This document shows positions 5,676-34,863 of a stretch of DNA of 64,000 bases, in pieces. How positions within the stretch are numbered: position 1 is the stretch's first letter; every line of letters begins with the position of its first letter. The DNA is from Candidatus Methanoplasma termitum (GTDB lineage: Archaea; Thermoplasmatota; Thermoplasmata; Methanomassiliicoccales; Methanomethylophilaceae). The stretch is taken from contig NZ_CP010070.1 in assembly GCF_000800805.1 (NCBI RefSeq), positions 1,178,001-1,242,000 on the forward strand, read 5' to 3'. A model generated the notes under the pieces. That model made no database searches, was not told the DNA's origin, and saw only the letters and a program-made list of their open reading frames with translations. A program made the translations under genes and the position numbers.

Positions 5676-8600
5676 TTAATTTTGAAGTTGTGATTTCTTC
5701 TTTGTCCATATGACCCAGCTCCCTACCCCCACCAGAACCAACAGAGTTGCTGTACCTATGACCCACCAGACAACAAAATTGCTGTTGTCACTGACTCTGT
5801 TTGCATCATCACCGGGGATGTGGAAATACAGATCTATGTGCAGAGGAACGCTGTCATCCTTGAAGGTCAACGATGGGGTCGCCTCTATGTTTGGGGTCTC
5901 CCATTTAGAGAATTCAAAGCCGTCGGCCGCAACGGCTCTGACAGTGATATCCGACCCCTCCGGAATCGCTACCGCTCCTCTGAACCTAACGAAGTCACCG
6001 CCGTTCACGCTGTATTCTGCATATCCGTTCCCTCCTGCGATGTCTATCCTTAAAGTGACCTCGCTTATTGAAACGGCTATTGTCTTCACCTCAATTGTGT
6101 GATTGGAGACAACATTGGTGAAGGTATATGATCCGCTGTCGATCTCCGCTTGTGAAAGGGAATACACACCGTCTATCAACACTTCGGATATCATAAAGCC
6201 GTCGATCGCTGTAAAAAAGACCGTTTGATTATCGCCCCCTATGGCCGATATCCTTCCGCTCGGAGTTATGATCGATCCGTTGCCGGGGAGTATGGTGGTA
6301 TAGTAGGTATTCGGTTCGGCCAACGGACTCTTTTGTTCGAATACTGCCGTGATCGTATCACTGCCCGTAATAGTATATGTGACGGGGGTTTGATTATCTA
6401 TCTTCCCGCCGATCCTGGCAAAACTGACAAAGTTCCATCCTGATATCTCTGTTGCGGTGAATTTTACCGCTGTTGTTCCGAACGGTACTGATAGGACCCA
6501 CGAACCCGGGCCAGTGAACGTCGATGTCCCGGCTTCGACCTTTCCTGTTCCGACAATGGTCAGAGAATAAGTTAATGGAACAGCATAGACCGCAGTTATT
6601 AGTGTGTCACCGTTTACCGGCACAAATAACGATACTTCTCCGCTCGGCATATCGTATGTGAAATCGTTATCTGCTGCAAGCGGCGCTTTGCCCATGGTCA
6701 ACTCGACGCTTGTGGGCAAGTCTGTGCCGGGTGCTGTCATAAGCGTCATCGGATACGGAGGGATCGCACTGTAGACCAATTTGTCCGGGTCGACTGTCGC
6801 GACGGCGGGGTCACCCTCCGGGACGAACCCCGTGTCTACAGTTAATTCGTTTCCGTCTGCGGTTACCGTTGCGAGCACGTACAATACATTGGGGTCTGAT
6901 TCCACCGCCCCGCCGAGTCCCGGCGGTGTAACTACCGCCCGGTACATCGTCCCGCTGTCTGTGTCGATCATCGGAGACAGGGAATATCTTGGGCCGTTAG
7001 CGCCGGGTATGTCCGTCCAGATTATTGCCGACCCGCCCGCAGGCAGAGTTGCAACTTGCCATTGATAGTGGACCGTCTGCCCCGTAGCCGGAGCCGACGT
7101 CGGTGAGACCATGAATGCCGCCGCGCCGTCCAAAAGCTGATACTGAGCATATTGCGGGTCTGCTTGGCCATAGTAGTTCCGGTCAATGGATATGTTCATT
7201 CCGGCGTTGAACGGATTAGGATCAAGAGAAACAGACTGAACAAAGGCCTGCAATATAGGATATCCTTCGTTGGTACCGCCAATTATGGTCCATATGCCCA
7301 TGAAATCCCACCCGGGGCCCGCTCCGAGCATCCCGGTGAAATATGTTGAGTTGGAGTTGCCTGCGTTCGCATCATCCAACGACGGCGTCATAAGTGCCGA
7401 CGCTGCCGTCTTCACACCGGAATGCTGTTCCGCCGGCACTGTACCGGCGGTCTCGTAGACAATATTGCCGTCTCCGTTGCCGGATATTGCGTCGGCGGCC
7501 AAGCCGCCATTTTTGAACAGTTGTTTTTCAAGATAGTAGCAAAGTCTGACGTATATCTGACTTCCCGCTTCGCCGATCAATCCTCCGACATCCAGAGGAT
7601 TGGAACCGTTTGCACTTACTTTGCCTTTATTGTAACATTTGAACAGTGTGAGAGCAGAAGAGCCTGTGGCGCCGCCGACTATGCCTCCCACGTCACGGAA
7701 GTTCGGTCCGGCTGTCATGGTGACATCTATTCCGCCTGCGTTATAGCAGTTCACTACCTCCGCGGACGCTACATCAACTTCTCCTATGATCCCTCCGGCA
7801 AATACGTTAAATGCAGACAAAGCATTGATCTCGCCGTCGTTGTAACACTCCTGAACAGACACCAATCTGGCACTATCGCCTGTTGTCTCACCTATGATGC
7901 CGCCTATCTGGGTAGATCCGACGCTCCCGCTCGTTGTGAACATCGCTTTCAGTGAACCATCGTTATAACATTTGGTGATATTGTATGATGACCCTGCCGG
8001 GGCCGGAGAGCCGGTCGTGTTGTAGAACCCCACTATGCCGCCGACGCGCGCATCGTAGCCGTTGCATTCTCCGTTGATCTCGCCTTGGCTTGAGTTGTAG
8101 GAGTTGGTAATTAAGAGTGTGGCTACTCCCGGATTTACCTGACCGGCAATGCCTCCGACAGAAATTGGGACATTGGTCGGATAAACATTCGAAAGTGCGC
8201 TTACCGGACCGGCGTTGTGGCAGCCGTCTATAGTTGTGTAATTGGATCTGCCGATTATGCCTCCGGCATTGACATTGTTACCGACTGCTGTCAACGCCGC
8301 TATCCTGCCGATGTTCCAAGACCTTAGGATCGATGATGAGTTTGTTGTTGAACCGAAAGTGTCGTCCGCACCCGCAATACCTCCTGCGTGTGCCATGTTG
8401 GCGTCGTTAAAAACAATCGCCGTCGCATATACCGTACGGGAATTGTAACAGTCTGTTATGTTTGTATTGTTTGTTGCCTGGCCAACTACGCCTCCCGCAT
8501 ATGCCAGTGTTGGAGACATTGCAGCCGAATATCCCGACCCGCTCCTGTCAAGTGTGATGCCCAGATCCTGTATCGTTGCACCATCGGTTTGAGCAAAGAG

Positions 8601-9233
8601 GCCGGAATAGGCCGCTCCGGCGTCGTTATAAGCTGCCGTCTTCAATCCATATATAGCATATCCGTTTCCATCGAACTTTCCTGTGAATGGCGATGCTGTA
8701 CCGACCGGAGTGAAATTACCATTGCTGTCGAAGGTTGCATTCAGAGGTGTGCTTGCGTCGAAGAATGTCGACCACGCAAAATTGCCATCGGAGGTTGTGC
8801 CTCCGAGCATAAGATCATATGTACAAGGAATGACGTCTTTGATCGCTACTGTGCCTCCAGCTGCGCTGCTGCTCATTCCGGTGTCGATGATCGCATACAA
8901 TGAAGTTACGGTCACGGCCGCATCGGTTGATGAAACTGTCACGGTCAGAACATTGCCTGACAGTGCCGCCTCGACAGACATCGGCACACCGCCGTTCAGA
9001 TCTTCAGTGATGAATATGTCGTTTGTCAGACAGTAAGACGCGTCTATACTCCACGTGAATCCGCCGTAAACATCCCCTGTACCTACTCTTGCAAGGTCCC
9101 ATTGAGTGCTTACGGGTATGTTGTCAGTTCCTGCACCGCTCATACTGTTTTGTCCGACTAACCCGACGGGTATGATCGTCACAGCCACCAAGACCACTAT
9201 TGTTAACAACAGCGCCGATCTGAAACTCCCCAT
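5676..9233 (-). CDS. Membrane-anchored surface protein with GLUG-like repeats
   Basis: This is a predicted cell-surface protein of 1185 residues. An N-terminal signal sequence (SALLLTIVVLVAVTIIPVGLVG) is followed by about eight GLUG-like repeats (residues 190-590), each with a GGIVGQ/GGIIGE core and a following CYN segment, expected to stack as a beta-solenoid. Next come Ig-like beta-sandwich stretches and a run of Listeria-Bacteroides-type beta repeats with aromatic/Trp positions. A membrane-proximal module of about 210 residues precedes a single C-terminal transmembrane helix (VVWWVIGTATLLVLVGVGSW) and a short basic tail inside the cell. The last 210 residues are clearly related to the end of the neighbouring giant protein. 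Such adhesin-like proteins are typical of gut methanogens; ligand binding is inferred. Confidence 0.85.
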   Translation of the reverse strand: MGSFRSALLLTIVVLVAVTIIPVGLVGQNSMSGAGTDNIPVSTQWDLARVGTGDVYGGFTWSIDASYCLTNDIFITEDLNGGVPMSVEAALSGNVLTVTVSSTDAAVTVTSLYAIIDTGMSSSAAGGTVAIKDVIPCTYDLMLGGTTSDGNFAWSTFFDASTPLNATFDSNGNFTPVGTASPFTGKFDGNGYAIYGLKTAAYNDAGAAYSGLFAQTDGATIQDLGITLDRSGSGYSAAMSPTLAYAGGVVGQATNNTNITDCYNSRTVYATAIVFNDANMAHAGGIAGADDTFGSTTNSSSILRSWNIGRIAALTAVGNNVNAGGIIGRSNYTTIDGCHNAGPVSALSNVYPTNVPISVGGIAGQVNPGVATLLITNSYNSSQGEINGECNGYDARVGGIVGFYNTTGSPAPAGSSYNITKCYNDGSLKAMFTTSGSVGSTQIGGIIGETTGDSARLVSVQECYNDGEINALSAFNVFAGGIIGEVDVASAEVVNCYNAGGIDVTMTAGPNFRDVGGIVGGATGSSALTLFKCYNKGKVSANGSNPLDVGGLIGEAGSQIYVRLCYYLEKQLFKNGGLAADAISGNGDGNIVYETAGTVPAEQHSGVKTAASALMTPSLDDANAGNSNSTYFTGMLGAGPGWDFMGIWTIIGGTNEGYPILQAFVQSVSLDPNPFNAGMNISIDRNYYGQADPQYAQYQLLDGAAAFMVSPTSAPATGQTVHYQWQVATLPAGGSAIIWTDIPGANGPRYSLSPMIDTDSGTMYRAVVTPPGLGGAVESDPNVLYVLATVTADGNELTVDTGFVPEGDPAVATVDPDKLVYSAIPPYPMTLMTAPGTDLPTSVELTMGKAPLAADNDFTYDMPSGEVSLFVPVNGDTLITAVYAVPLTYSLTIVGTGKVEAGTSTFTGPGSWVLSVPFGTTAVKFTATEISGWNFVSFARIGGKIDNQTPVTYTITGSDTITAVFEQKSPLAEPNTYYTTILPGNGSIITPSGRISAIGGDNQTVFFTAIDGFMISEVLIDGVYSLSQAEIDSGSYTFTNVVSNHTIEVKTIAVSISEVTLRIDIAGGNGYAEYSVNGGDFVRFRGAVAIPEGSDITVRAVAADGFEFSKWETPNIEATPSLTFKDDSVPLHIDLYFHIPGDDANRVSDNSNFVVWWVIGTATLLVLVGVGSWVIWTKKKSQLQN

Positions 9234-9531: not shown

Positions 9532-12500
9532 TTACTGTTTCTCCTCCTCTTCTTCCTTCTTCCTTCTCTTGGCGGCTACTGCGAACCACCAGATCAGGAG
9601 GGCGATGATTATCAGCAATACTATTGCAATGAGGATCCAGAGCAGAAGCGAGAGATCGAGACCGACCCTGCTGGTATCAGAATCCGGAGCGAAGTGCAAC
9701 TTCAGGCTTATGGATGAGGACGCATTGTCGAATGACAGCGCAGGTATCCTTGCCACTGATGACGGCTCCCAACTGTCGAAGTGGTATCCGCCTTCTGCTA
9801 CTGCCCTCACATTCACATCCGAGCCGGCACTGAATGTGACCGGGATAGTGTATTTTGCGAATGCGGAACCGTCAATGCTGTACTCGGCCACTCCGCGATC
9901 CTTCTCCACGACGTCAATAGTCAGCGTGACGCTGTTATTCAGTGCCACTGCAGATATCACATCGATGGTGTGATTCATATTCACACTGTAGAATGTGTAT
10001 GAACCGCTTGAGACCTGCGCTTGGTCGATGGGCCTTCCGTCTACTATGACGGAGGTTATTGTGTATCCTTCGTTTGCATAGAAGCGGAACGTCTTATCGA
10101 TGCCGCCGGGTACCTCCACCTTGCCGCTCGGCGAGATGTTCGAGTTACCGTCAGCTGTCGCTGTGATATAGTACACCTTAACATTGATCTCGAAATACGC
10201 AGTGAATGTCTTGTTCGCAGATTGCGGACCGATATTCCTTGTTGCATTCTTGGAGCCATCCTCCCATGACATGAAGGAGTATTCTCCGGTCCTTGTCGTG
10301 TTTACGGTGAAGCTGTCGGTCTTGTTCACAAGGAACGGACTGGAATACGGCATCACTGTTGTCATTCCCGGCAGGGACCATGTGAACGTTCCCGCACCGG
10401 CCGGACTTGCCACCAGAGTTATCTCAGCTATCTTTGTCGGATCCGTGGACAGGAAATATGCAGTCAATGTGACATTGCTTGACATCGTCACCGTCCTCGG
10501 GTTGTCGGTCTTGGCGTCGTTCCACCACCTGAATGTGTAGTCTGGATCAGTAGGTATCTGGATCTGCACGACCGTGTTCGGGTTGAGCTTCACAGGCCCG
10601 GTGTAGTTCATCCAGCTCGCTCCGCCATCGACGGAGTACTGGAATGAACCCGCTCCAACAGGATATGAATTCAGGGTCAATGTATATGCGTTTGGCGCCA
10701 GGAAGTAGGCAGTGAACGTTACATTCGCCGCCTGCGGTCCGACATGCCTTGTTGTGCTCGTCGAAGCATCCTCCCAGTACTGGAAGGTATATCCGGTCTT
10801 GGCTGTAGTTATCACGGTCAGATCGTCGACCTTGTTCACCTTGAATGGTGCCGAGTAGGTCTGATTAACGGTCATTCCCGGCAGGGACCATGTGAATGTT
10901 CCTGCGCCGGCCGGATCCGTTGTCAGAGTTACGGTCACTGTGTCGCTTCCGAGGAAGTAGGCAATGAACGTTACATTCGTCGCCTGCGGTCCGACATGCC
11001 TTGTTGCGCTCAACGAAGCATCCTCCCAGAACCTGAAGGTGTATCCTGTCGCTTGGGCAGTTATCACAGTCAGATCGTCGGTCTTGTTCACAAGGAACGG
11101 TGCCGAGTATGTCTGAGCTACAGTCATTCCGGGCAGAGACCATGTGAATGTTCCTGCGCCGGTCGGGCTTGCCGTCAGAGTTATCTCAGATATCTTTGTC
11201 GGATCCGTTGACAGGAAGTATGCTGTCAACGTAGTGTTCGCAGACATTGTGACTGTCTTCGGATTGTCGGTCGTGCTGTCATTCCAGAACCTGAACACAT
11301 AGTCTGCTGCAGGGGTGGTCTGAACCTCTACAACCGAACCGGTGTTGAAAGACACTGTTCCGGTGTAACTGATCCAAGCTGTTGTACCAGCGAGTCTGTA
11401 CTCAAATGTGCCTCCTTCTCCGGGATACGAATTCAGTGTAAGTGTCACCGTTCCACTGTTGGACAGATAGTACGCCGTATATGTCGTAGCACCGGTCACA
11501 GTATTGGCGGTTATCGTGCGCGGGTTGTCTGTCGAGGTGTTGTCCATCCAATACTTGAATGTATATCCGCTGACAGACGGTGCAGTCATTGCAAAGTCTG
11601 CCGCCTTGAGTATTGCAAACACTCTTCCATTCCCGGTCGCAGGCAATACGCTTAGCAAGGCCTTACTGTTCTGGTTGACAATGAAGACGGGGTTCAACGT
11701 GTCAGGTGATGCGTTGATCGTTACCAGTGCCTGCGTCAACGGGTCATAGTAAATCGCGGTCAATGTAGTTCCTGGAGCACTTACTTGTGCTACAAGGTCG
11801 GCGACGCCCATTATCTTTCCTTCCCATCCGAGCAGTGTGTAGACAACGCTCGTTGATGATGTGGCTGAGGTCGGTGCGGTCGCTGTGAAGTCCTTGTTCA
11901 TTTCAACGGCGAAGTCCCTTCCGCTTACCTGGTTGAGGGTGAAGGGTATCGAGGCCGAGTCCTGCGTCACTGTGAACGCCGGGGACAGCGAGCTCGGATC
12001 CGCCTTCAGCGTGACCAGCGCATGCGTTGCCGTGTTGTAGTATAACGCAACGTGGGTCACCGTCGGCTGTGTGGTACCGGGCATTGCCGCGATAGCTACC
12101 GACGACGTTCCGCCTTCCCATCCCTGCAGCGCATATCCCGTGACCATCGGTGCCAACAGGGCATACGGCGAGTTCATCGGTACAACGAACTGCCTGCCTC
12201 CGCCGGCAACCTTCACTGACGGAAGATCCGTGCCTGCGACGCTCAGCGTAAAGTCCGGGTCTATGGCCGTGATGTTTGCCTTGAGGGTTATCAAGGAGTA
12301 TGTCGAGTTGTAGTAGATCGCGGTGTACGTTGTTGCCGTTGCGACCTGCTTGGTTATCGACGTTGTTCCGGACAATTCTCCAGCCCACCCGAGCAAGGTG
12401 TATCCGCTCAATGGGGAAGCCGTTGCCGTGAAGTCGGTGTTCTTCAGGACTGCGAAGTCCCTTCCGCCTGCTGTGTTTATGGTGTAGAGCACAGGGTTGC

Positions 12501-15500
12501 TGTTCTGGCTCAGTGTGAGCTCCGGAGATATGCCGGCGATGTTCGCCTGCAGAGTAACGATCACGGTCGTTGTCGCGTTGTAGTACAGGGCTGTGAACGT
12601 CTTTGCCGCTGCGACCTGTGTGGTCATAGCCGCAACGCCTGATGCTCCTCCCGCCCATCCCTGGAAGACGTATCCGCTCGCAGGGGGTGCGGTGATCGTG
12701 AAGTCCACGTTCTTGGTGACGGCGAAGTCCATTCCGCCAGCCGGGTTAACGGTGTACGGAACGTTGCCGCTCTGGCTCAGCGTGAACAACGGGTTGATCG
12801 TTGACGGGCTTGATACAAGCGTGACGATTACCTTTGCGCTCGCGTCGTAGTAGAGTGCGGTGAACGTCGTTGCCGTCGATACCTGCTTTGTCAGTGTTGC
12901 CGTTCCCGACGGTTCTCCGGACCAACCCTGTAATGTGTACACAGGAGATGTTCCGGATGTCGTCGGCGCGGTCGCCGTGAAGTCTACGCCCTTTGTGACG
13001 GCGAAGTCCATTCCGCCCGCCGGGTTAACGGTGTACGGAACGTTGCCGCCCTGGCTCAGTGTGAACGCGGGGTTTGCCGCGGTCGGGCTTGATACAAGCG
13101 TGACCAGGACCTGTGCGTTCGCATCGTAGTACAGGGCTGTGAACGTCTTTGCCGCTGCGACCTGTGTGGTCAGCGTTGCCGTTCCTGAAGGCATTCCGGA
13201 CCATCCCTGCAAGGTGTAGATTCCGGATGACATCGGTGCTGTTGCCGTGAAGTTAGTATTCTTGGTGACGGCGAAGTCCATTCCGCCCGCCGGGTTAACG
13301 GTGTACGGTACGGAGTTCGAGGCCTGCGTCATTGTGAACGCGGGGTTTGCCGCGGTCGGGCTTGATACAAGCGTTACGATTACCTTTGCGCTCGCGTCGT
13401 AGTAGAGTGCGGTGTATGTCGTGTTGCCTATTATCAGTCCCTTCTCCACTGTGGCGACTCCAGACGCCTCTCCGGACCAACCCTGTAACGTGTACACAGG
13501 AGATGTTCCGGCCGTCGTCGGCGCGGTGATCTCGAACTTCATCGTCGGGTCGACAGAGAATCTCCATTCTCCGGTAGAGAAGTCACCTGCTACAGGCGAT
13601 CCTCCCTGCGTGAGGGTGAACGCCGGAGATAATCCGGTGATGTTGGATACCAACGTAACGAATACGTATCCATCCAACTTGTACTGTGCCACATATGTTG
13701 TGGGTCCTGCGACTCCGGCCGTTATGGTCTCGGTCAGGTTCGTTCCGACCTCTGTTCCGCCCTTTGTCCAGTTGACGAAGGTGTATGCTCCTTCCGTCTG
13801 CGTGGCGGTGATCGAGAAACTTGCTCCCTTTGCCACGATGAAGTCCCTTCCGCTTCCGTTCGTTGTGTACGGAACGTTGCCGCCCTGGTTCAGTGTGAAC
13901 GCCGGAGTGATTGCTGTCGGGTCCGGCATAAGCGTTACTATCGCCTGCGTCAGCGGGTCGTAATAGAGTGCGGTGTACTTTGTCGCGGCGGCGACCGTCT
14001 TGGTCAGGTTCACTGCGCCCGACGCCTCTCCGGACCATCCCTGGAATGTGTACACAGGAGATGTTCCGGATGTCGTCGGCGCTGTCGCGGTGAATGCTAC
14101 GTTCTTTGTGACGGCGAAGTCCTTTCCGCCCGCCGGGTTAACGGTGTACGGAACGTTGCCGCCCTGGTTCAGTGTGAACGCGGGGTTTGCCGCGGTCGGG
14201 CTTGATACAAGCGTGACGATTACCTTTGCGCTCGCGTCGTAGTAGAGTGCGGTGAACGTCGTTGCCGTCGATACCTGCTTTGTCAGTGTTGCCGTTCCCG
14301 ACGGTTCTCCGGACCAACCCTGTAATGTGTACACAGGAGATGTTCCGGATGTCGTCGGCGCGGTCGCCGTGAAGTCTACGCCCTTTGTGACGGCGAAGTC
14401 CATTCCGCCCGCCGGGGTAACGGTGAACGGTACGGAGTTCGAGGGCTGCGTCATGGTGAACGCTGGGGTGGGCCGCGGTCGGGTTCGATATTAGCGTGAC
14501 CAGGACCTGTGCGTTCGCATCGTAATAGAGTGCGGTGTACTTTGTCGCGGCGGCGACCGTCTTGGTCAGGTTCACTGCGCCCGACGCCTCTCCGGACCAT
14601 CCCTGGAATGTGTACACAGGAGATGTTCCGGCCGTCGTCGGCGCTGTCGCGGTGAATGATGTGTTGGCTATCACCGCGAAGTCCTTTCCGCCCGCCGGGT
14701 TGGCGGTCCATAGGATCGAATTACCGGACTGGCTCATTGTGAACGCGGGGTTGGCCGCGGTCGGGCTTGAGACCAGCGTTACCAACACCTGCTTGCTCGC
14801 GTCGTAGTAGAGTGCGGTGAACGTCGTTGCCGTCGATACCTGCTTTGTCAGTGTTGCCGTTCCCGACGGTTCTCCGGACCAACCCTGTAATGTGTACACA
14901 GGAGATGTTCCGGATGTCATCGGCGCGGTCGCCGTGAAGTCTACGCCCTTTGTGACGACGAAGTCCCTTCCGCCCGCCGGGTTAACGGTGAACGGTACGG
15001 AGTTCGAGGCCTGCGTCATGGTGAACGCGGGGTTGGCCGCGGTCGGACTTGACACCAGCGTAACTACTGCCTGCGTCAGCGGGTTGTAGTAGAGTGCGGT
15101 GTATGTCATATCGGTGGTGATAGCGGCCTTGGTCACTCTTGCCTGACCGGAGAGTTCTCCCTCCCATCCGAGCAGTGTGTATTGTACCGAGCTTTCGGTG
15201 TGTGTTGCCGGAGCTATGACATCAAATGCCATACCGGACACAACCAGGAAGCTCCATCCTCCTGTGATCTGCGTGCCGGGCACATAGTATCCGTTCTGAT
15301 ACAGCGTGAAGGGCGGCGATATCGAAGGCGATGCCTTCAGTATGACGGTCACAGGCGCGCCGGGGGTGTAAAGCGCCACGTATGTCGTAGGTGTTGAGAC
15401 CCCTGCGCTTATTGTTTCGGTCATGTTCGGTCCGACGTTTATCCAGTTCATGAATGTCCAGCTGGGGACGTTCGGAGCTGTTATGTCGAAGCTCGTGCCC

Positions 15501-18500
15501 TTCAAGACGGCGAATATCCTTCCGTTCTTGGCACCTGTTATAACTGCCGACGGTACGCTCGCGCCGCTCTGCTTGAGGGTAAAGACCGGCGCCAATGCGT
15601 TCGGCTCTGCCTCCAGCGTTACCAGCGTCTGTGTCAGCGGATCGTAGTAGATCGCGGTGAAGGTCGTATCGGCGGTCACCGTTGCGGACAGGGTCGCATT
15701 CAGATATTCGTGGTCTGCCCATCCGAGGAAGTTATATCCGCTCATTGTCGGGGCATTGGCTGTGAAGGGCGTTCCCTTGGTCACTATAAAGTCCCTTCCG
15801 CCCGCAGGGTTCGTGGTGAACAATACGGGGTTAGAGGCCTGGGTCATGGTGAATGCGGGAGAGATCGTGTTCGGGTTGGCCTTCAGGGTCACTATCGCCT
15901 GTGTTGCCGTGTTGTAGTAGATCGCTGTGTACGTCTTGTTGGCGCCGCCCGTGGGGATCGTGTCGGTCAGCGTGACTGTGCCGGTAGGCATTCCGGACCA
16001 TCCCAGGAAGTTGTATACCGGGGATGTTCCGGCTGTCGTCGGAGCAGTTGCTGTGAACGCCGTTCCCATGTTGACGATGAAGTCCATTCCGGCCGTCGCA
16101 TTGAGTGTATAGGGCTTGTTGCCGCCCTGATCCAATGTGAACGCCGGGTTGGCCGCGGTCGGGCTTGACACCAATGTAACGATCGCCTGCGTCAACGGGT
16201 TGTAGTAGAGCGCAATATATGTTTGGTTAGAGCCGCCCATTGGGATCGTATCTGTCAACGTAGCTGTTCCGGAAGTCTTTCCTGCCCATCCCAATAAACT
16301 GTATACCGGAGATGTTCCCGCTATTGGCGGAGCGGAAGCTGTGAATGGCGTTCCCATGTTAACGATGAAATCCATTCCTCCCGTTGGGTTTACAGTGAAC
16401 AGAACATTACTTCCCTGGGTCAGTGCGAATGCTGGGGCAAGCGTGCTCGGGTCGGCTTTCAGAGTTACTATTGCCTGAGTTAACTGGTTGTAGTATAACG
16501 CTGTGTACGTTTGGTTGCTGCCGCCCATTGGGATCGTGTCTGTCAGTGTAGCTGTTCCTGAGGTCTTTCCGGACCATCCCTGGAAGTTGTATACCGGGGA
16601 TGTTCCGACTGTCATCGGAGCGGTCGCTGTGAACGGTGTTCCCATGTTGACTATGAATTCCCTTCCGCCAACTGTGTTCGTGATGAATGAAAGATCGCCG
16701 CCCTGGTTCAATGTGAACGCAGGGGAGATCGTGTTGGGACTGGGGTTCAGAGTTACTATCGCCTGTGTTAACGGGTTATAGTAAAGCGCAGTGTAGGTCA
16801 TCGGTGTGTTGATCGTCTTTGTCAGATCCGCGCCTGCTGGCTCTCCGGACCATCCCTGCAGTGTGTATACCGGGGATGTTCCCGTCGTCATCGGAGCGGT
16901 CGCTGTGAACGATACATCCTTAGTGACCGCGAATACTCTGTTGTTACCGTCGGTAACAAAAGACAGACCGACATTGTTCTGTTTCAGAGTGAAGTCCGGG
17001 GCCAAGCTGCTTGGGCTGGCCGTCAGGGTCACAAGCGCCTGTGTGTTGATGTTATAATACAACGCAGTGAAAGATGTGTTCGCTGTCACTCCCGGTGAAT
17101 CCAGTATCTCATTGTCCTTCTCCTTTCCGCTCCATCCTAGGAATGTCAGATTAAGACTGCCGAATGTCAGCGGCGCCTTGATCTGGAACGGAGTGCCGGG
17201 ATCGACCTTGAAAGTGTTATCCGTTGCTGCGGGAACCCACACATCTGCGACGGTGGAGTACTTGAACCACGTCACACCCGTCGGGTCACTCAGAACGGTT
17301 ATCGTGATTGCGGTTGTTGAAGAGACATATGCTGCTGTATATTTTTTGTCCTCGTTACCGGCTGGCACAGTGAACTTTGCGTCTGTGTAAACCTCAGATC
17401 CGACGGCTCCGCCGACAGTTCCGCCATACCAGTATGAGAATGTCTTGCCGGCGGGCGGTGTCTTCAGTTCGACGGTCGTTGTTTTGTCATTCGGTATATT
17501 CATCGGCAGGCCGGGGTATTGGAATACCGTTACTCCGTTGTCGTACGAGACCTCTGCCGCTCCTCCTGCCGGATCAAGCGTCAGCTGCCATGTCAGTGTG
17601 GTGGTGGAGAACGTTACCGTCTCGCTTATACCGGAATTGTCGCCCATCGGTCCAATCGTGATCGCGGGGTTCGCAGAGTTCAATCCTCCCGTCGCAGTGT
17701 TTCCTGTCCAGGAAACGAACACGTTAGGAGCTGTTGCACTGGCCGTAAGAGTCACACTGTTGTTATAGGGGACAAATATCTGTCCGGTCGCATTCAGCGT
17801 GCCCGTCGAGGTGCCGTCTTGCGATACAAAGCTTACGCTGCCTGACCCTGTTCCTGCGAACGTTACGTCCACAAGATAACCGGGGGCGAATGTAGCTACA
17901 ATATTATGTGCCGCGGTTATGTTGGTTAGAGTGAACACAAAAGTGCCATCGGGATTCTTAGTATAGGGGATGTCTGTTCCGCCATCCTTCAGACTCACGA
18001 GTCCGTTCCCGTAGATGGGCGTGATCGTGAATGTCTGGCTTGTTCCGGACACTGCACTGAATGAGTAGTCGGGGGTTCCGGTCGTTGTCGTCACTTTATT
18101 GACGATCTTGTCGGAACTGTTCGGCTGGACGAATCCGCCTGTGCCTATGGTGGCATTCTGGATCGCCACATTCACATTTATTGTGTACAACGCAGAGCTT
18201 ATGACGGTAAGTTTTGCGGGCGTAGATGTGTATATGATGTTCTCATATGTTGGGTTTGTAGATGTCATTATGCATCTGTACAGTTTACCGTTGTCCGTAT
18301 TGCTTACATTAGCTGCTGTGTATGTGTTCGAAGTTGCTCCGGCGATCGTGTTCCAGACAGCCCCTCCGTCTGTACTTACCTGCCAGCGATAAAGAATGCT
18401 GCTACTACAGATAGCATTGACAGAGAATACCGCATTGGTACCCGATAATGCTGTCACATCGTCGGGTGCTGTCAGAATCTGTATCGTGTTATTCGGCGAA

Positions 18501-21500
18501 TATGGCGCGGGAGTCGACGGGGGCGTTCCGGTAACACCGGTCACTACCAGCGATGCAGGTTGTGAGTACACGGTGTTGTTAGCGCTGTCCTTCACTACAC
18601 ATTGGAATGTGTTTCCTGTAGTGAATGTGGGTGTCGATCCTGAGAGATAATTGTAAGGCGATATCTGGAGCATATTCGTATCTGCTCCAGTGAAACCGAC
18701 GCCCGAAAGATCCTTCCAACCCGAGTCCCAATATTGCCAGTTGTATGTCAAAGCGCTGCTCGTTGTCGAGATCGCTTTCACCGTGAACACGGCGTTGGAC
18801 ATGTTGTCTATGGTAACTGTGGCCTGCGGTTGCTGTGTGATCGCAAGGGTAGGGGTCTCTGCCTTCCACATTGCATAGAATGTTGTCGTGGATACTCCTT
18901 GGGGTATGACCGAGCCGTACATGTCGCCTGTGTTGCGCGATGCTCCGGTCTGCATGTTACCCTCTCTCCACTCGACGAAATCATTGCCTTTCATTGCACT
19001 TGTCCAGACGGTGCCGCTGAGCTCCGGGGGAGCTGACGCTACGGGAGAACCGGGCTGCTGCCCCCAAGGGTCCGCTTCCTTTGTATATCCAATTTTGAAA
19101 TCAGGATATCCGGAGCCCATAATGCGGGTGATCGTCCCGAGCTGGGGGTCGCTGTAGACAAAGTTCACTCTGTCGGTGTAGTCTGCGGTAATTACCAGCC
19201 TTCCGGTTATGTCTGTGTCGAACTCAATGTTTCCATATGAAGTAGCAACCTCATTGACTCCAGTGGGGTTTACAAGCCTATTCTCAGATGCATAATATTT
19301 CCATTGGCCGTCAAGTTCGACAACATCCGTAAGACTGCCGGGAGATGCCGCGTTGTTATAGTCTATATTGTGTCTTTCAACGTAAGACAGACTCCATGGC
19401 GCAACGGCTTCTCCAAGATAGGCGTTCAATGCCCTGAAGGACTGTACGAACTTTGCACCCTCGGCAATGTGTACGGTGTCGTCTTCATATCTTAGTTTAC
19501 TTCCTATCCTATACACTACGCGATAGAGTACCGGGTCTCCGGGCTGCAAGTTGCTTGTTTGAACCGCTTTATTCGTCTGTGCCGTATCGCCGGGGATACC
19601 TCCATACGCAGTGAATGTCTTCACTTCACCGTTTGATTTATATTCAAGGGATATTTCGTTTGGATCCGCCGCAGTTCCTGCAGGCAGATACAGATTGTAG
19701 TATGGATAGCTCACAGTTTGATTCTGCAGATCCATGTGTCTTCCCTGGACGTGGAAATTCACATATCTTTTCGTGAAGTCGTATTCTTCATACAGAACAT
19801 CGGCTTTCCGGACGAATAAGGACTGAGGATTGTCTACATTGTCCAGATTAACTATGTACCTTACCAGAGAATGGCCCGGAGTGTCCTTGACGGCAATTCC
19901 TCCGCTCGTCAGATCCATATTGCCGGATGCTCTTATCGAGCCGCCGTTGATGATCGGTGAACTCCCAAAGTCACCGTTGGACCCGATAGGGACGGTCATC
20001 GGTGTTGTACCGCGTAATCTCTGTATGTTAATGACCCCTCCGTCAATCTGCACAGTTGACTTTGGATTGGCCTTCAGATTGCTACCCAGTGCCGCACCTG
20101 CGTTATTGGCATCTGTTCCGCTGGTAATAGAAATGATGACATTCACATTTCCGCCGGTTATGATGATGTTTGATGGTTTTGTCTCTTCGGCACCTCCTCC
20201 TATCGCAGCACCCTGCGCACGAGAAATGGTCCCTGTGGATGACCTATTTACAAGCACATATCCGCCTGATATTCTAACGTCGGCTCCTCCGCCGCCGATG
20301 CCCGAATCACTGCCTGCACCGCCGCCGATACCGGCACCTGTAAGGCAACCATATGTCGGCGAAGAGTTAGTTTGGTAGATCTTGACGGACCCGCCGCTTA
20401 TCGAGATATAATTATCATGCCCGGATTTCGCACAGTACCCTGTTGCCTGTCCCGGTGCGTTGCCGGAATATTGTGCCGCTCCCGACCCTATTCCAGAACC
20501 GCTGACGGCTGCACCTTTCTGGTTGATAGTTATGTCGCCGCCTGATATCAGAATTATTCCGCTGTCGCCACCCTTTCCTGAACCGGTTCCCGCACCGCCT
20601 ATCGCGGCTGTGCGCAGACCATACGTCGCATCGCCGTTTACTTGAGTTATGTTTATTGTTCCGCCTGTTATCGTCACATAGTTCCCGCTACCGGATTCAT
20701 TGGATGCTCCATTGAACTGCCCCCCTCCGCCAATCGCGGGAGCAGTTAGGGATGCGCCGTTAGCTTGCTGATAAGTTGTTATCGATCCCCCGTGCATCTC
20801 AAAGTCCGCTCCTTCTCCGCCGTTATAAGAACCGTCGATTGTTCCGCCGCCGCCTATACATGAGCCGCGTATCCTGGATGCGCAACCGTTTGCCAGTCGC
20901 AATATTCCCGATTCGATTTGAATGTGCCCGGCTGAATCTCCACTGTTTGCATTGCCGGTAGTGCCATTGCCCCCGATCAGCGCTCCGATAGATGGGTCTG
21001 GACCCCCGATGCCGGAAACAGCACCTGTTGAGAAGTTATATGTTATGTTCCTGGTAATGGTCAGACTTCCCATACCCTGTCCGGTTATTATCATGTCAGA
21101 TTGTATTCCGTTTGATGTTTTGACATTGCTTATAGCCGCAGAAGAGCAGTTAGTGCCCCCATAGTTAGAAATTATGTTCGACCCCAGTAACTGCATGATG
21201 ATCTTCGCACCTGGTGCTATGCTCAGGGAGTTATTGGTCCCCGGAGCCCCTCCGGTGTTGCCATTTGTTATTGTAAGAGAATCTAACACAACATAAAGTC
21301 TATTGTCGTCCGGGAATGGGATGTTACCTGTTAGACCAAATGTTATGCAGTTTGTCCCGTACGCTCCCGTGAAGTAAATCACATTGCTTGCGAGAGTTGT
21401 TACGGCTCCTGTCCCTATTTTATAATTATAATTTGTTCCGTCATATGACACCATTATGTTTGCGGTCGATGATGCCAATGTTATCTTCGATGAAGCGGGT

Positions 21501-21874
21501 ATCTCTTGCCATTGTGCATAGAATGTAACGCCGCTGTATCCGAGGAAGAACCTGTCTTCGTACGGTGTTGTAAAAGTATATCCAATCCCGCTGCCGTCGT
21601 CCTATGTGTTCCACCCTGTGAACACATAACCCGGGTTTGTCGGCAAAGGGTCGAAAAGCACTTGCGAAGCGTCTCGCCCCTGCTCAAAGACCGATCCGTT
21701 CGGAACAGCCCCCGAACCCCCATTAGCATCATAAGTCACTTCTGCCAAAGGAGATCCACTGCTTATTTGCGTATCAAATTGTATTGCGGTAAATGGTACC
21801 GCCACCATTATCAAAAACAATGCTATTATTGCTAGCGTAGAAAAACGCTCCTAAATTTCGGATCTCAACCTCAT
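9532..21874 (-). CDS. Giant adhesin-like surface protein with two in-frame TAG codons and one frameshift
   Basis: This would be a cell-surface protein of about 4,113 residues. From the ATG at 21874 (GGAGAGGGG Shine-Dalgarno 3-11 bases ahead) the frame reads MRLRSEI, TAG, ERFSTLAIIALFLIMVAVPF, a textbook signal peptide apart from the amber codon. A second TAG (codon 91) interrupts an InlB/Flg_new repeat: YVFTGWNT, TAG, DDGSGIGYTF. No TAA or TGA occurs before a one-base insertion near 14464 shifts the frame. The rest reads to a TAA at 9532. Order: signal peptide, InlB repeat, Gly-rich beta-helix (about 21,400-19,900), Ig-like regions, about 20 repeats of about 93 residues, five of about 85 residues, a stalk, a transmembrane helix (LLLWILIAIVLLIIIALLIW) and an RRKKEEEEEK tail. 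The gene may use pyrrolysine or may be decaying; the choice is open. Confidence 0.7.
10190..11465 (-). repeat. Five tandem coding repeats of about 255 bp
   Basis: A second repeat type lies between the long repeat array and the C-terminal stalk. Each unit of about 85 residues has the pattern TLTxxPxGAGTFxWSLPG, an aromatic-rich strand and a GYTFRFWEDAS or DYVFRWWNDAK core, ending TLTAYFLS. Units alternate between a WSLPG version and a YSVDGGASW version, so duplication probably occurred in pairs. Confidence 0.8.
11470..17050 (-). repeat. About 20 tandem coding repeats of about 280 bp
   Basis: The segment encodes about 20 copies of a module of about 93 residues that begins VTLVSSPTAANPAF-like, continues TQGGNVPYTVNPAGGxDFAV and TAPTTSGTSPVYTLQGWSG, and ends TFTALYYD. 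Several copies are almost identical at DNA level; for example 12805-13024 and 14197-14416 match over all 220 bases. That points to recent duplication or gene conversion, and to a risk of collapsed assembly. Confidence 0.85.
14464..14464 (-). other. One-base insertion (frameshift) in the giant surface protein gene
   Basis: In repeat copies at 13066 and 15030 the plus strand reads CGCGGGGTT or similar; here it reads CGCTGGGGTG, with one extra T. The insertion moves the reading frame from the N-terminal part (14465-21874) to the C-terminal part (9532-14463). Repeat spacing confirms it: homologous points at 14263 and 14828 are 565 bases apart, one more than two 282-base units. It may be a real mutation, a phase-variation event or an assembly error. 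Confidence 0.75.
21602..21604 (-). other. In-frame TAG (codon 91) in the giant surface protein gene
   Basis: The minus-strand TAG sits between GWNT and DDGSG of a recognisable InlB-type repeat and is exactly in frame with both sides (270 bases, 90 codons, from the ATG at 21874). In homologous repeats this position is a variable, solvent-exposed residue such as Ala, Lys or Glu. The flanking sequence shows no other damage. Confidence 0.8.
21851..21853 (-). other. In-frame TAG (codon 8) in the giant surface protein gene
   Basis: The minus-strand codon TAG follows seven sense codons (MRLRSEI) after the best start and precedes the hydrophobic core of the signal peptide. Without reading through it, the only starts left in this frame are a TTG at 21820 and an ATG at 21808, both of which would remove the basic N-region of the signal sequence. 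Confidence 0.75.
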
Positions 21875-21938
21875 GGTCCCCTCTCCAAGCTATAATAATC
21901 TTCAATTAGTTCCCCGCTGAAAGATTACTTATGATAAC

Positions 21939-22089: not shown

Positions 22090-22452
22090 TCACAGTTTGC
22101 AGCAACGGCAGTCCTGCGCCATGCAAACAGGATCCATGATCTTCCACTTCAATGCCCAATATTTTATTTGCTGTATGAATTCCACTAATTCTAACCCGGC
22201 GGGAGTGAGCGCATACTCACTTTTGATAGGAAATTGTGAAGAGTCCACTCTTTTTTCGATGAGTCCTTCAGATTCTAGCTCTTTTAGCCTCTCAGATAGC
22301 ACTTTTGGGGTTATGTCTCTCATGGCTTCTCTGATCTCGCAGAACCTCTTCCATTCGTTATCTTCATCCTTCCATAACTCTACAAGTATCAGTACTGTCC
22401 AGCGCTTTGCAACGTATTCCATCGTTCTGGACAGAGTGCACATCTTATACAT
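22090..22452 (-). CDS. HxlR-family winged-helix regulator
   Basis: This is a 120-residue DNA-binding protein of the HxlR/MarR-like family. The core reads VAKRWTVLILVELW, then ITPKVLSERLKELESEGLIEKR (recognition helix and start of the wing) and YALTPAGLELVEFIQQIKYWALKW, the usual HxlR C-terminal dimer helix. Cys-5 stands at the N-terminus as in many members, and the tail adds CMAQDCRCCKL with four more Cys residues, suggesting redox or metal sensing. It lies 215 bases upstream of the giant surface-protein gene on the same strand, making that gene a plausible target. Its own TATA-like box (TTTATAAATA on the minus strand, near 22,477-22,486) is about 25 bases ahead of the ATG. Confidence 0.88.
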   Translation of the reverse strand: MYKMCTLSRTMEYVAKRWTVLILVELWKDEDNEWKRFCEIREAMRDITPKVLSERLKELESEGLIEKRVDSSQFPIKSEYALTPAGLELVEFIQQIKYWALKWKIMDPVCMAQDCRCCKL

Positions 22453-22879
22453 GGTTGCAAATAAATACTCTCTCTATTTATAAATTGGGTATGAACTCTA
22501 ATTTTAAAGCTTTATATATTACCACTGAAAAATGGTGTTAAAAATCAAATAACACAATATTCTGAGCAAAAACAACCAAATTACCATCCGTCCTTTCAGA
22601 TTAACAGCCGTTCTCCATGCCGTTAGGCCTCTTATTTTTCAGCGTTTTTAACTGCACGGATTGGACGGAACAACGCAACTTTTTGCATCAAAAAAACAGC
22701 TTTTTTTAGAAGAGCCCAGATAAATTATTTTACTTATGTATAATTATGATTATATTATGTCTATATAGAAGAAAATCATAGCGGTAAACCCTCATCCTTC
22801 CGAATATGCTTTTATCGTGCGTCCCGCAATGCATAGAAATATAATTAACATTATATAATCAAAATTATATCTACTGTTG
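22453..22879. other. AT-rich intergenic region
   Basis: No gene is supported here. Next to 22452 is the TATA-like box of the HxlR gene; next to 22880 is ATATAATTAACATTATATAATC, a likely promoter for the ATPase gene. The middle is AT-rich, with a short GC-richer patch at about 22,600-22,670 that shows no open frame of note. Confidence 0.5.
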
Positions 22880-24283
22880 ATGTCATTCGTCGGACGCAAA
22901 GAAGAATCCCAGGAATTCGATGCTCGGTACAGATCAACCAATGCAGAACTCGTCATCCTATACGGCAGACGGCGTGTCGGAAAAACTGCGTTCCTGCAGC
23001 GATTCATGCAGGGAAAAAAGTCTTTCTTCTTCAGTGCGACCGAGTCGGAAGACAACGAACAGAGAGAAAGATTCAAACAGAAGATGTTGAATTTTGGCTT
23101 CGACGGCGAACCTTCTTTGCTCAACGATTGGGGAGGGATCTTCCGCAGTTTGATAAAGCTTAAAATGACGGGCAAGGCCTTGGTCGTTATCGATGAGTTC
23201 CAAAATCTGCTCAAAGGCAACCGGGAGATCGCTCCGATCATTCAGAAGATTTGGGACGAATTCCTTTCAAAAAAATACATCATGCTCGTGCTCTGCGAAA
23301 GCGCTGCGAATGTCATAGAGAACGAGGTCATTGAAGATAAAAAGTTCTTTCACATACATTCTGCCGCAGTAGTGAAAATGAAAGAATTGCCCTTCAAAGA
23401 AGTGATGAAGTTATTCCCGAAATATTCACTTAGCGAAAGGATTGTAGTTTACTCGGTGCTCGGCGGGGCGCCGTTCTATCTCAAACAGTTCTCCCCTTCC
23501 GTGAGCTTAGAAGAGAATCTCAAAAGGAGCATCCTTTCCCCCGGTGCGATCCTCTACAACGAAACGGAGTTCATTCTCAAACAGGACCTTCGCGAGACCG
23601 CTACATATAACACTATCCTCTCTGCTATTGCACACGGCTGCGAAAAGATGGTTGACATCTCTCAAAAAACAAAGATCATCCCGACAAAAGCAAATGTCTA
23701 TCTGAAGAATCTGATAGATCTAGGCATAGTTGTCAAAGAATACAGCATATTGGGGCCGGCTGAAAAGGCCACCGGTTTACACAACGGCGCCTATAGGATC
23801 GCGGACAACTTCTTCCGTTTCTGGTACAGGTTCGTGTATCCGAACATAGACCAGATAGAATTGGGCGAAACGGAACGCCTCGCAAAGGATATCTCTGAAC
23901 AAGTGAAAAATGAATATGCCTCAGCTTGCTTTGTTAGATTATGTATTGAGTACATAAGAGAACGTAACGCTGCGAACGATCTCCCTTTCGTTGCAAAGCG
24001 GGTGGGAAGGATATGGTGTAAAGAGTGCGCAGTAGATGTCGGGGCGACCGACGGGAAGACCTTGCTGATAGGCGAATGCAGGTGGTCGGACCAGCCGGTC
24101 GGCTTAGAGATACTGAGCGCAATGAGAGAAAAGGTCACAAAGACGAGAGAGCTCAGCGAAAAAGAGGACTACGTTCTGTGCCTTTTCTCCAAGTTTGGTT
24201 TCACGCAGGCACTGATCGACGAATCGAATGTGTCGAACATCAACCTCTTTGACGCCGTAAGCATGTTCGATACCACCCTATAG
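22880..24283 (+). CDS. Archaeal AAA-type ATPase with C-terminal DUF234 domain
   Basis: This protein of 467 residues belongs to the COG1672 group of archaeal ATPases. Residues 1-200 form the P-loop ATPase with Walker A GRRRVGKTAF, Walker B ALVVIDEFQN and sensor ALCESA-like LVLCESAANV. A winged-helix segment follows, and the C-terminal DUF234 part has DVGATDGKTLLIGECRWS, which looks like the D...ExK-type core of a PD-(D/E)xK nuclease with Arg in place of Lys. The start at ATG 22880 is preferred over TTG 22877. The gene ends in TAG, rare in this window. Such ATPases are often lineage-variable and associated with mobile regions; their role is unknown. Confidence 0.85.
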   Translation: MSFVGRKEESQEFDARYRSTNAELVILYGRRRVGKTAFLQRFMQGKKSFFFSATESEDNEQRERFKQKMLNFGFDGEPSLLNDWGGIFRSLIKLKMTGKALVVIDEFQNLLKGNREIAPIIQKIWDEFLSKKYIMLVLCESAANVIENEVIEDKKFFHIHSAAVVKMKELPFKEVMKLFPKYSLSERIVVYSVLGGAPFYLKQFSPSVSLEENLKRSILSPGAILYNETEFILKQDLRETATYNTILSAIAHGCEKMVDISQKTKIIPTKANVYLKNLIDLGIVVKEYSILGPAEKATGLHNGAYRIADNFFRFWYRFVYPNIDQIELGETERLAKDISEQVKNEYASACFVRLCIEYIRERNAANDLPFVAKRVGRIWCKECAVDVGATDGKTLLIGECRWSDQPVGLEILSAMREKVTKTRELSEKEDYVLCLFSKFGFTQALIDESNVSNINLFDAVSMFDTTL

Positions 24284-26653: not shown

Positions 26654-27292
26654 TTATTCTTTCTTAGAAAGATTCTGCCACGTAACAACACCTCTCTGGA
26701 TGGCCGTCAAGTTACCGACAACGGCGAACCAGATCAACATTATCTCCATCCAAGATATCGAATAGCCGGCTATATCGATCGCAGAGTATCCGACCAAGAT
26801 CATTATGAATTGTAATATCGGGAACAACGTGCTCAGAACTACTCTGTCCGCCCTTCCCAGCAACCCCGCATAAAGGCGCGGTGCGCCTACGGCCTGCGCC
26901 TGCGTTCCCATGTATGATGTGAGGAGAACACCCACAAGAGCCAGCAATCCTATGTATGGATTGCACCACGCACTGACCGCAACTCCGCCTATCATGAAGA
27001 CATCAGCATACCTGTCAAAGACGTGATCCAAATAGTCACCTTTGTTGGATGCTTTTCCGGCAAGCTTTGCCACTTTTCCGTCCAACGCATCAAAGTAACC
27101 GGAGATCAGAACAACAATCGCCCCGATTATCAGAAGGTAGTGGCGGTCATAGCTGAAATAGAACAGCAGGCCTGAAAGGAAAGCAAGGATCAAACCGCCC
27201 CATGAGATCATATTCGGATTGACATTGATCATCCTCTTTGCGACGGGCGTTAAAGCAAAGTCTGCCCTTTTCCTTTGCTCGTCTAGAACCAT
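26654..27292 (-). CDS. CDP-alcohol phosphatidyltransferase (archaetidylinositol phosphate synthase type)
   Basis: This integral membrane enzyme transfers a phosphoalcohol head group onto CDP-activated lipid. The family motif is visible as DALDGKVAKLAG followed by KGDYLDHVFDRYAD, giving the metal-binding D-x2-DG-x2-A-(K)-x8-G-x3-D-x3-D pattern. About six hydrophobic segments are spread over 212 residues. Sequence style fits archaeal archaetidylinositol phosphate synthase, which makes the precursor of archaetidylinositol from CDP-archaeol and inositol phosphate; the substrate is inferred from family. The start at 27292 overlaps the end of the kinase-like gene by 10 bases. The neighbouring PfkB kinase and the nearby inositol-phosphatase-type gene are consistent with a head-group route. 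Confidence 0.83.
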   Translation of the reverse strand: MVLDEQRKRADFALTPVAKRMINVNPNMISWGGLILAFLSGLLFYFSYDRHYLLIIGAIVVLISGYFDALDGKVAKLAGKASNKGDYLDHVFDRYADVFMIGGVAVSAWCNPYIGLLALVGVLLTSYMGTQAQAVGAPRLYAGLLGRADRVVLSTLFPILQFIMILVGYSAIDIAGYSISWMEIMLIWFAVVGNLTAIQRGVVTWQNLSKKE

Positions 27293-27810
27293 CCTTCTAA
27301 TTCCTCCGTCCAATCGACATTGCCAGGTCGGTATTTATCAATATTCCCTTTTATGATGTCCTCAACCTTGTCCGCAATAGCGGAAATGCCTTCGTTCGAA
27401 GAGTCCAATTCGCATACTGGCACATCGGCTTCGATCGATTCGCACAGTATGACGTCCAGGATCTCTGCCTGAACATTCTCCCTCACTTTGCCTTCGGAGT
27501 AACCGCGCGCACCGAGTCTTTCGGCCAATATCTCCGGCCTGCATCTCAACACAATGATCATGTCAGATTCAACGCAATGGGAGATGTGCCCCTCGATTAG
27601 GATCAGGTTCATTTTCCTGTGCTCCTCCAAAGAGATATCCAATGAATCGACGTCGACGCAGTATGTATCCCTTGCTTCGTCCTTCTCTTCAAGCAGCCCG
27701 TTCTCTCTGATGAATCCGTTAAGATCCAAAACCTCATAGCCCCTGCGCCTGAGCTCTTCCGCAAGTTGCGTCTTCCCTGTGCCAGGGGTCCCGGTTATTG
27801 AGATCATCAT
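27283..27810 (-). CDS. Adenylate kinase family protein (AK6/Fap7-like)
   Basis: A P-loop nucleotide kinase of 175 residues: Walker A is GTPGTGKT at the N-terminus (MMISITGTPGTGKTQL), followed by VLDLNGFIRENG and the LIEGHISH strand typical of the archaeal/eukaryotic AK6 (Fap7/hCINAP) family. LRCRPEILAERLGARGYSEGKVREN is the conserved LID-side helix. AK6 relatives act as adenylate kinases and, in eukaryotes and archaea, in maturation of the small ribosomal subunit through uS11. The start ATG at 27810 lies 4 bases after the TGA of the upstream PfkB gene. It ends in TAG and overlaps the next gene by 10 bases, so the three genes form one operon. Confidence 0.85.
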   Translation of the reverse strand: MMISITGTPGTGKTQLAEELRRRGYEVLDLNGFIRENGLLEEKDEARDTYCVDVDSLDISLEEHRKMNLILIEGHISHCVESDMIIVLRCRPEILAERLGARGYSEGKVRENVQAEILDVILCESIEADVPVCELDSSNEGISAIADKVEDIIKGNIDKYRPGNVDWTEELEGWF

Positions 27811-27814
27811 CTTA

Positions 27815-28729
27815 TCACAGATACCTGTCTGCACGGTGCAGGACATCTTCCCATCTCGGGATGTTGGTCAGAGCTCCCACTTTTTCCACAACGAACGAGG
27901 AGGTCGCCGATGCCAGGATCAGCGACCTGTGAACATCATATCCGTTGTACAGCCCACAGTAGAATCCCGCACGGAACGCATCTCCTGCCCCCGTGGCATC
28001 AACAAAAGCATTGCCTTTGACAACAGGGATGCTTACCTTTTCTCCTTTGATCTTTGCGGTGCTTCCCTTACTGCCCTCCGTGCGGACAACGAGATCCTTC
28101 TCCACTTCCATGACATCTTTTATCCCGAGATACTTCTCGATGGTCCTTGCTTCATATTCATTGCAGAACAGCGAGTCCGACAGCGGCAATGCCTTCTCGA
28201 ACTTCGCCTTGTCCCACATCTTATAGACCTCCTGCGCAGGGTCCACCGCAATGCTCGGGCCGCCGTTTATTGTTCCCATCACGGAGATGTAGTAATCCGG
28301 CTCCCCAGTACAAAAGTGGACGTAAGCCGACCTTGAAGCGTTACCGTTTAACAGACGATCCAGCTTGCTGGCACTTCCCTGCGGCCCTTGATAGAATATC
28401 ACTCTTTGAAGCAGTTCCGAGTCGTTCACAACCATTGCTTGGGATGTTTCATATTCATTTACGTGAACGAACTCATCCATTATGAGTCCGGATTCTTTCA
28501 TGTCATTCTCATATCTTACAGGAAAGTCCTGACCTACGAAAGCGCATATTGCGGTCGGCACGCCCAGTTTGGCAGCGGTCATTGCAATATTCGTTCCCGT
28601 CCCACCGAGGGTCGTGCTCTTTGAGATTACATCGACGGACTCATTTATCTCCGGGAATCTTTTGATCGCTATTATCTGATCGACCGTAACGTGGCCGTAC
28701 ACAGAGAGGAATGGTTTTGCGCCGCCCAT
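27815..28729 (-). CDS. PfkB-family sugar/nucleoside kinase
   Basis: This 304-residue kinase of the ribokinase/PfkB superfamily phosphorylates a sugar or nucleoside with ATP. The N-terminal substrate segment STTLGGTGTNIAMTAAKLG and the C-terminal catalytic FVDATGAGDAFRAGF (anion hole and base Asp) are both present. VRTEGSKGSTA lies at the ATP site. The family in methanogens includes broad-specificity nucleoside kinases as well as sugar kinases, so the substrate is not fixed by sequence. It is the first gene of the operon with AK6-like and CDP-alcohol transferase genes, and is divergent from the inositol-phosphatase-type gene 88 bases away. Confidence 0.88.
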   Translation of the reverse strand: MGGAKPFLSVYGHVTVDQIIAIKRFPEINESVDVISKSTTLGGTGTNIAMTAAKLGVPTAICAFVGQDFPVRYENDMKESGLIMDEFVHVNEYETSQAMVVNDSELLQRVIFYQGPQGSASKLDRLLNGNASRSAYVHFCTGEPDYYISVMGTINGGPSIAVDPAQEVYKMWDKAKFEKALPLSDSLFCNEYEARTIEKYLGIKDVMEVEKDLVVRTEGSKGSTAKIKGEKVSIPVVKGNAFVDATGAGDAFRAGFYCGLYNGYDVHRSLILASATSSFVVEKVGALTNIPRWEDVLHRADRYL

Positions 28730-34149: not shown

Positions 34150-34863
34150 ATGCCTGAAGTCAGAATCGTCCTTGTCGGACCCAAGTTCGAAGGGAATGTG
34201 GGTGCGGTCGCCAGAGCCATGGCCAATTTCGACATTGACGAGCTGTATCTTGTCGAGCCTTGCGAGCTGGGCGATGATGCATACCGCAGAGCAAAACACG
34301 GCTCGGATGTTCTGGACAAAGCCGTAACAGTGCATACGATGGATGAGGCCGTAGAAGGTTGCTTCCTTGTTGCAGGCACCAGCGGAATAATCACGCATGG
34401 GGACAGGAACTACACAAGGCTCCCGATAAAGATCAGGGAATTTGTTCAGCAGGTCTCGGGATATGAAGAGAGGATCGCCATTGTTTTTGGGAGGGAGGAT
34501 GTGGGCCTGTATCAGGATGAACTGAATAAATGCGATGTCTTCATCCATGTACCAACAAGCGAAAAATATCCAACCCTCAACCTTTCTCACGCAGCGACAT
34601 TGGTGATGTATGAGTTCTTTCAATCCGGGAATATCACAAGGCGGGCGGAACCAGCCGACAGGAAGGAAAAAGAGTACATGCTCAGTTTCTTCGATGACCT
34701 TATGGACGCCATCGATTATCCCGAGCACAGAAGATCCGATACGTCGGTCATGTTCAGACGCATGATGGGCCGCTCCATTCCGACCAAATATGAATACAAT
34801 ACGATCATGGGAATATTCGGGGATGCGTCTAAGATAATAAAGAAAGGTAAGAAATGGGGATGA
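34150..34863 (+). CDS. TrmJ-like SPOUT RNA 2'-O-methyltransferase
   Basis: A SPOUT-fold methyltransferase of 237 residues that places a 2'-O-methyl group, most likely on tRNA nucleotide 32. The family motifs are RIVLVGPKFEGNVGAVARAMANF at the N-terminus, IVFGREDVGL, and the knotted SAM site in LNLSHAATLVMYEFF. The C-terminal helical extension (about 75 residues) is the form seen in archaeal TrmJ. The final 35 bases overlap the converging FtsZ-like gene. The assignment to position 32 is by family, not by a visible feature. Confidence 0.85.
   Translation: MPEVRIVLVGPKFEGNVGAVARAMANFDIDELYLVEPCELGDDAYRRAKHGSDVLDKAVTVHTMDEAVEGCFLVAGTSGIITHGDRNYTRLPIKIREFVQQVSGYEERIAIVFGREDVGLYQDELNKCDVFIHVPTSEKYPTLNLSHAATLVMYEFFQSGNITRRAEPADRKEKEYMLSFFDDLMDAIDYPEHRRSDTSVMFRRMMGRSIPTKYEYNTIMGIFGDASKIIKKGKKWG

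Follow-up and report, generated by a model that had tools for sequence, protein, structure and literature searches.

In the 64,000-nucleotide stretch of Candidatus Methanoplasma termitum DNA that was analyzed (the window), a giant surface-protein gene starts on the minus strand at ATG 21874, with GGAGAGGGGACC ahead of the start and a Shine-Dalgarno-like GGAGAGGGG, read directly from the sequence, at 21878..21886 (minus strand), 3 nt 5' of the ATG. When translated with TAG readthrough, the first frame of the gene (14138..21874, minus strand) comprises 2,578 codons including two in-frame TAGs. The first TAG is codon 8 (21853-21851, minus strand), positioned in the charged first part of the signal peptide in the context MRLRSEI-TAG-ERFSTLAIIALFLIMVAVPF, and the second is codon 91 (21604-21602, minus strand), in the context GWNT-TAG-DDGSGIGYTF. 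The latter is located inside a Flg_new (InlB-like) repeat (21554..21739, minus strand; residues 46-107), whose match to PF09479 scored 40.1 bits, above the gathering score (cut-off 27). From there, 2,487 stop-free codons run to a TGA at 14138, which closes the frame past a frameshift point. Both ambers are flanked by coding sequence: codon 91 has a third-position excess on each side in the comparison with the congener genome G033, and the start and signal peptide around codon 8 can be aligned with homologues. No structured element was found in the RNA 3' of either TAG, where the predicted structure is not unusual. The original prediction had described the ATG with its Shine-Dalgarno, the TAGs at codons 8 and 91, their placement in a signal peptide and in an InlB/Flg_new repeat, and a long stop-free run behind them, and all of these points were confirmed in the sequence.

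The same prediction had treated the locus as one continuous 12.3-kb gene, which proved incorrect. An extra base (+1) at about position 14464 (minus strand) was recognized by comparing the site with those sibling repeats in the gene that align with it. They read CCCC-GCG where this site reads CCCC-A-GCG, and the added base moves the last 1,640 codons out of frame. These codons form a second frame (9532..14454, minus strand), the translation of which contains InlB-like repeats and a C-terminal transmembrane anchor; Flg_new_2 scored 78.8 bits in it, above the gathering score (cut-off 23.6), and its terminal part shares 41% identity across 213 residues with that of the gene in G033. Because of the insertion, the signal peptide and the membrane anchor are both present in the gene but lie in different frames and not in one product. 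The frameshift presumably stems from misassembly of the repeat array or from a recent event that cost the gene its C-terminal anchor, or else marks a site of inefficient frameshifting. The hydrophobic signal peptide, the Flg_new/InlB-like repeats and the C-terminal membrane anchor resemble those of the InlB-like, adhesin-like proteins of gut methanogens, a role in adhesion being putative; unlike in other InlB-like (Flg_new, Flg_new_2) surface proteins, the frame is interrupted at three places, two of them TAGs and the third the +1 insertion.

The adjacent gene (5676..9233, minus strand) encodes a surface protein of 1,185 codons with a hydrophobic N-terminus and a related C-terminal part, and contains no in-frame TAG. 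Upstream of the giant gene lies an intact HxlR-like regulator gene (22090..22452, minus strand; PF01638, 75.5 bits). TAG also ends genes in the window, namely those for a DUF234 ATPase (22877-24283, plus strand) and a Tubulin/FtsZ-type protein (34829-35677, minus strand), with short extensions past the TAG of 11 and 7 codons, respectively, and that for an AAA_18 ATPase (27283-27846, minus strand). The G033 copy of the last gene (L078:6888-7415, plus strand) ends likewise, and this TAG, at the same place in both genomes and with short possible extensions, is a predicted true stop that has been conserved. Another G033 gene (L075:126, minus strand), with a homologue at about 25,750 (plus strand) of the window, has a TGA within a conserved stretch and is probably decayed.

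The genome is a single contig of 1,488,669 bases with a GC content of 49.7% in the sampled part. The original prediction had made its amber reading depend on the presence of pyl genes, and a complete cluster of pylT, pylS, pylB, pylC and pylD was found, contiguous and uninterrupted, at about 603,150-607,106 of the genome. PylS (270.9 bits) and PylD (202.5 bits) were both over the cut-off in the profile search, while pylB and pylC, named by position and reading, are the open frames between pylS and pylD. The tRNA-Pyl gene in this cluster is 70 nt long and has a CTA anticodon. It is an atypical tRNA, was not reported by the ARAGORN and Rfam runs, and was identified by eye, backed by conservation across the genomes of the genus; its folding z of -0.33 is uninformative taken alone. 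In the genus, pylS is present in 14 of 17 genomes, and pylT likewise in 14 of 17. The PylSn profile TIGR03912 had no match in the genome, which is no argument against a pyl system since the order Methanomassiliicoccales is known to lack a separate N-terminal PylS domain (PMC3941956).

TAG is rarely used as a stop codon. In 1.25 Mb it ends 19 of the 941 called genes (2.0%), against 68.7% for TGA and 29.3% for TAA, as the original prediction had expected, and no fewer than five of these TAGs are internal to longer genes. The share is 0.7% in G033 and 1.6% in Ca. M. alvus (PMC4153887). We then compared 1.254 Mb (about 84% of the genome) with 1.2 Mb of G033, keeping in-frame stops that have aligned, third-position-rich sequence on both sides and pass a best-frame filter, and discarding by hand those that lay ahead of a start codon, within rRNA or on the antisense strand; the sorting is a matter of judgement and the counts are small. 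After this hand sorting, five TAG sites in four genes lay inside conserved coding sequence, two in a CfbC-like gene and one each in a tandem CfbA gene, an MntA-like nucleotidyltransferase gene and the surface-protein gene at codon 91, and no internal TAA or TGA was left in conserved coding sequence. First readthrough scans had been swamped by antisense and wrong-frame alignments, and coding-statistics scans for interrupted genes returned mostly in-frame gene junctions.

In-frame TAGs also occur in other genes of this genome. Two mtmB genes have one at the expected place, and in ramA (TIGR04270, 714 bits; about 609,693-611,309 of the genome, L006:9694-11310, plus strand), which is placed just downstream of an mtmB gene, TAG is codon 2, a position occupied by a sense codon for R in G033. 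A DUF6951 gene and a transposase-like frame, the latter named by reading, each have an in-frame TAG. At about 844,062-845,658 (L135:4062-5658, minus strand), the CfbC-like gene with its two TAGs is followed by the tandem CfbA gene, whose single TAG lies between its two domains, and then by CfbE. CfbC was the best profile for the first of these genes, yet under its cut-off (307.8 versus 402 bits). We rejected the essentiality of F430 biosynthesis as proof of TAG decoding, because TAG-free paralogues of both the CfbC-like gene and CfbA exist elsewhere. A 176-codon frame ending in TAG is present in three copies (L017:9753-10283, L124:3384-3914 and L131:15925-16455) and is possibly part of a mobile element.

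Homologues of the first 958 residues of the surface protein occur in nine further genomes of the genus. The original prediction had pointed to orthologues as a place to look for the two ambers, and neither is kept: no aligned homologue has TAG at codon 8 or 91, all of them having sense codons there. The G033 homologue, for which no synteny with the window was found, is an open segment of 3,990 codons whose only TAG lies elsewhere, at the end of the signal peptide, where the window's protein has Q; the remaining homologues have no TAG. A second G033 surface protein of about 400 codons (contig C1, L088:5363, minus strand) has a TAG right after its signal peptide. A scan of genome contigs gave two loci, both in one MAG. 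The window's protein sits on a long branch among the compared sequences and shows the highest number of unique changes at otherwise invariant columns (24, versus 4-18 in the compared sequences), which hints that it may be under mildly relaxed constraint.

Ambers outside the methylamine genes have already been reported in the order, and the surface gene is a further case. In Ca. M. alvus, 16 non-methyltransferase amber genes were predicted, and for half of these the two relatives used for comparison have homologues that lack the amber (PMC4153887), and ISO4-H5 has 46 amber-containing genes, including an adhesin-like gene, a predicted nitrogenase gene and ten insertion elements (PMC5011839). Our genome resembles these two in its complete pylTSBCD and very few TAG stops, in having in-frame TAGs in genes unrelated to methylamine use, in that the copies in relatives often have sense codons, and, as in ISO4-H5, in an amber in an adhesin-like gene; it differs in the clustering of two TAGs at the start of a giant gene, in the additional frameshift and in belonging to another genus. 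The reported cases and the present one are alike known from sequence prediction. The surface gene shares the TAG codon, the decoding machinery and the genome with the methyltransferases MtmB, MtbB and MttB. In those enzymes pyrrolysine is a catalytic residue encoded by a conserved TAG, whereas neither TAG of the surface gene is conserved and no role is suggested for the residue.

That both interruptions are TAG and not TAA or TGA, as the original prediction had stressed, is true, yet we rejected it as evidence from the surface gene alone: since 46-52% of the single-base nonsense mutations of the gene's own codons give TAG, two out of two would be expected with a chance of about 0.24, which makes this weak evidence alone. 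The genome carries the argument instead, and its pyl machinery, few TAG stops and conserved genes with internal TAG but no internal TAA or TGA favor decoding of the predicted sense TAGs and therefore make amber decoding the likelier reading, as originally proposed, although the ambers are not conserved in orthologues. Based on these observations, we suggest that the TAGs of the surface gene are probably ambers acquired by drift and read as pyrrolysine, where the expression and decoding of this gene are what we infer. Both TAGs would serve as sense codons, PylS would charge tRNA-Pyl, and pyrrolysine would be inserted at both sites to give a giant InlB-like surface protein. The codons would have come by drift, and because the genome has largely given up TAG as a stop, a sense-to-TAG mutation would mostly swap one residue and be tolerated.

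An early stage of decay, in which the TAGs and the frameshift inactivate a costly, unselected surface gene and no full-length protein is made, is an unlikely explanation but one to be taken seriously. This alternative, also raised at the outset, retains weight through the frameshift near 14464 and the mildly raised change at conserved positions, even though amber decoding is likelier. Decay is favored by the frameshift and the clustering of lesions: the gene carries three, one of them a frameshift, while frameshift candidates are rare elsewhere in the genome (no more than four in the G033 comparison, and some of these are probably split genes). The 24 unique changes at invariant columns and the G033 homologue, with its N-terminal TAG and no clear start codon, point the same way. 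The +1 insertion also speaks directly against decoding, as it removes the C-terminal anchor and is a lesion in its own right, which amber decoding would leave in place. A further point against decoding is that two TAGs in one gene exceed, by a rough estimate, what the density of sense TAGs across the genome would lead one to expect. Against decay, the rest of the about 4,200 codons is open, and the genome accepts TAG, not TAA or TGA, in conserved genes. Seen as a possible pseudogene, the gene has one frameshift and no TAA or TGA, and it combines mildly raised change at conserved columns with a retained third-position excess, third positions changing about twice as often as second positions, although recent decay would leave the same trace.

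Of the 4,220 codons, both TAGs are confined to the first 91 (p about 5e-4, assuming uniform positions and calculated post hoc), an early placement that fits either selection against late ambers under incomplete decoding or a checkpoint on pyrrolysine supply. The proposal in the original prediction that production of the protein is tied specifically to this supply gained no support. In the case of a checkpoint, early ambers in long surface genes, together with codon 2 of ramA, would let full-length protein form only with plentiful charged tRNA-Pyl and keep abortion cheap. We consider such a checkpoint in Methanoplasma improbable. It would agree with the independent TAGs at the signal-peptide end of the G033 homologue and of another G033 surface protein, and with the TAG at codon 2 of ramA, which is required only alongside the methylamine methyltransferases. 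However, the TAG positions are not conserved, most homologues are TAG-free, codon 2 of the G033 ramA is a sense codon, and the early placement is also explicable by selection against late ambers. The rarity of TAG stops, moreover, points to decoding that is constitutive, a case made earlier for Ca. M. alvus (PMC4153887). Finally, it is very improbable that sequence or assembly errors made the TAGs, the frameshift or all three: the frameshift does lie in a long array of similar repeats that is difficult to assemble, but both TAGs are in non-repetitive sequence, and random error would neither put TAGs where they are expected in two mtmB genes nor keep conserved genes free of internal TAA and TGA.

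If the TAGs of the surface gene are read as pyrrolysine, this probable termite-gut methanogen joins the small number of methanogens whose use of pyrrolysine seems to extend past the methylamine enzymes. Standard annotation would truncate such genes, including ramA, the CfbC-like gene and the tandem cfbA. Where ambers sit in long genes also bears on the efficiency of natural amber decoding, as giant genes should have lost their late ambers to selection if decoding is incomplete. Were the checkpoint true, charged tRNA-Pyl would govern cell-surface display and methylamine use jointly.
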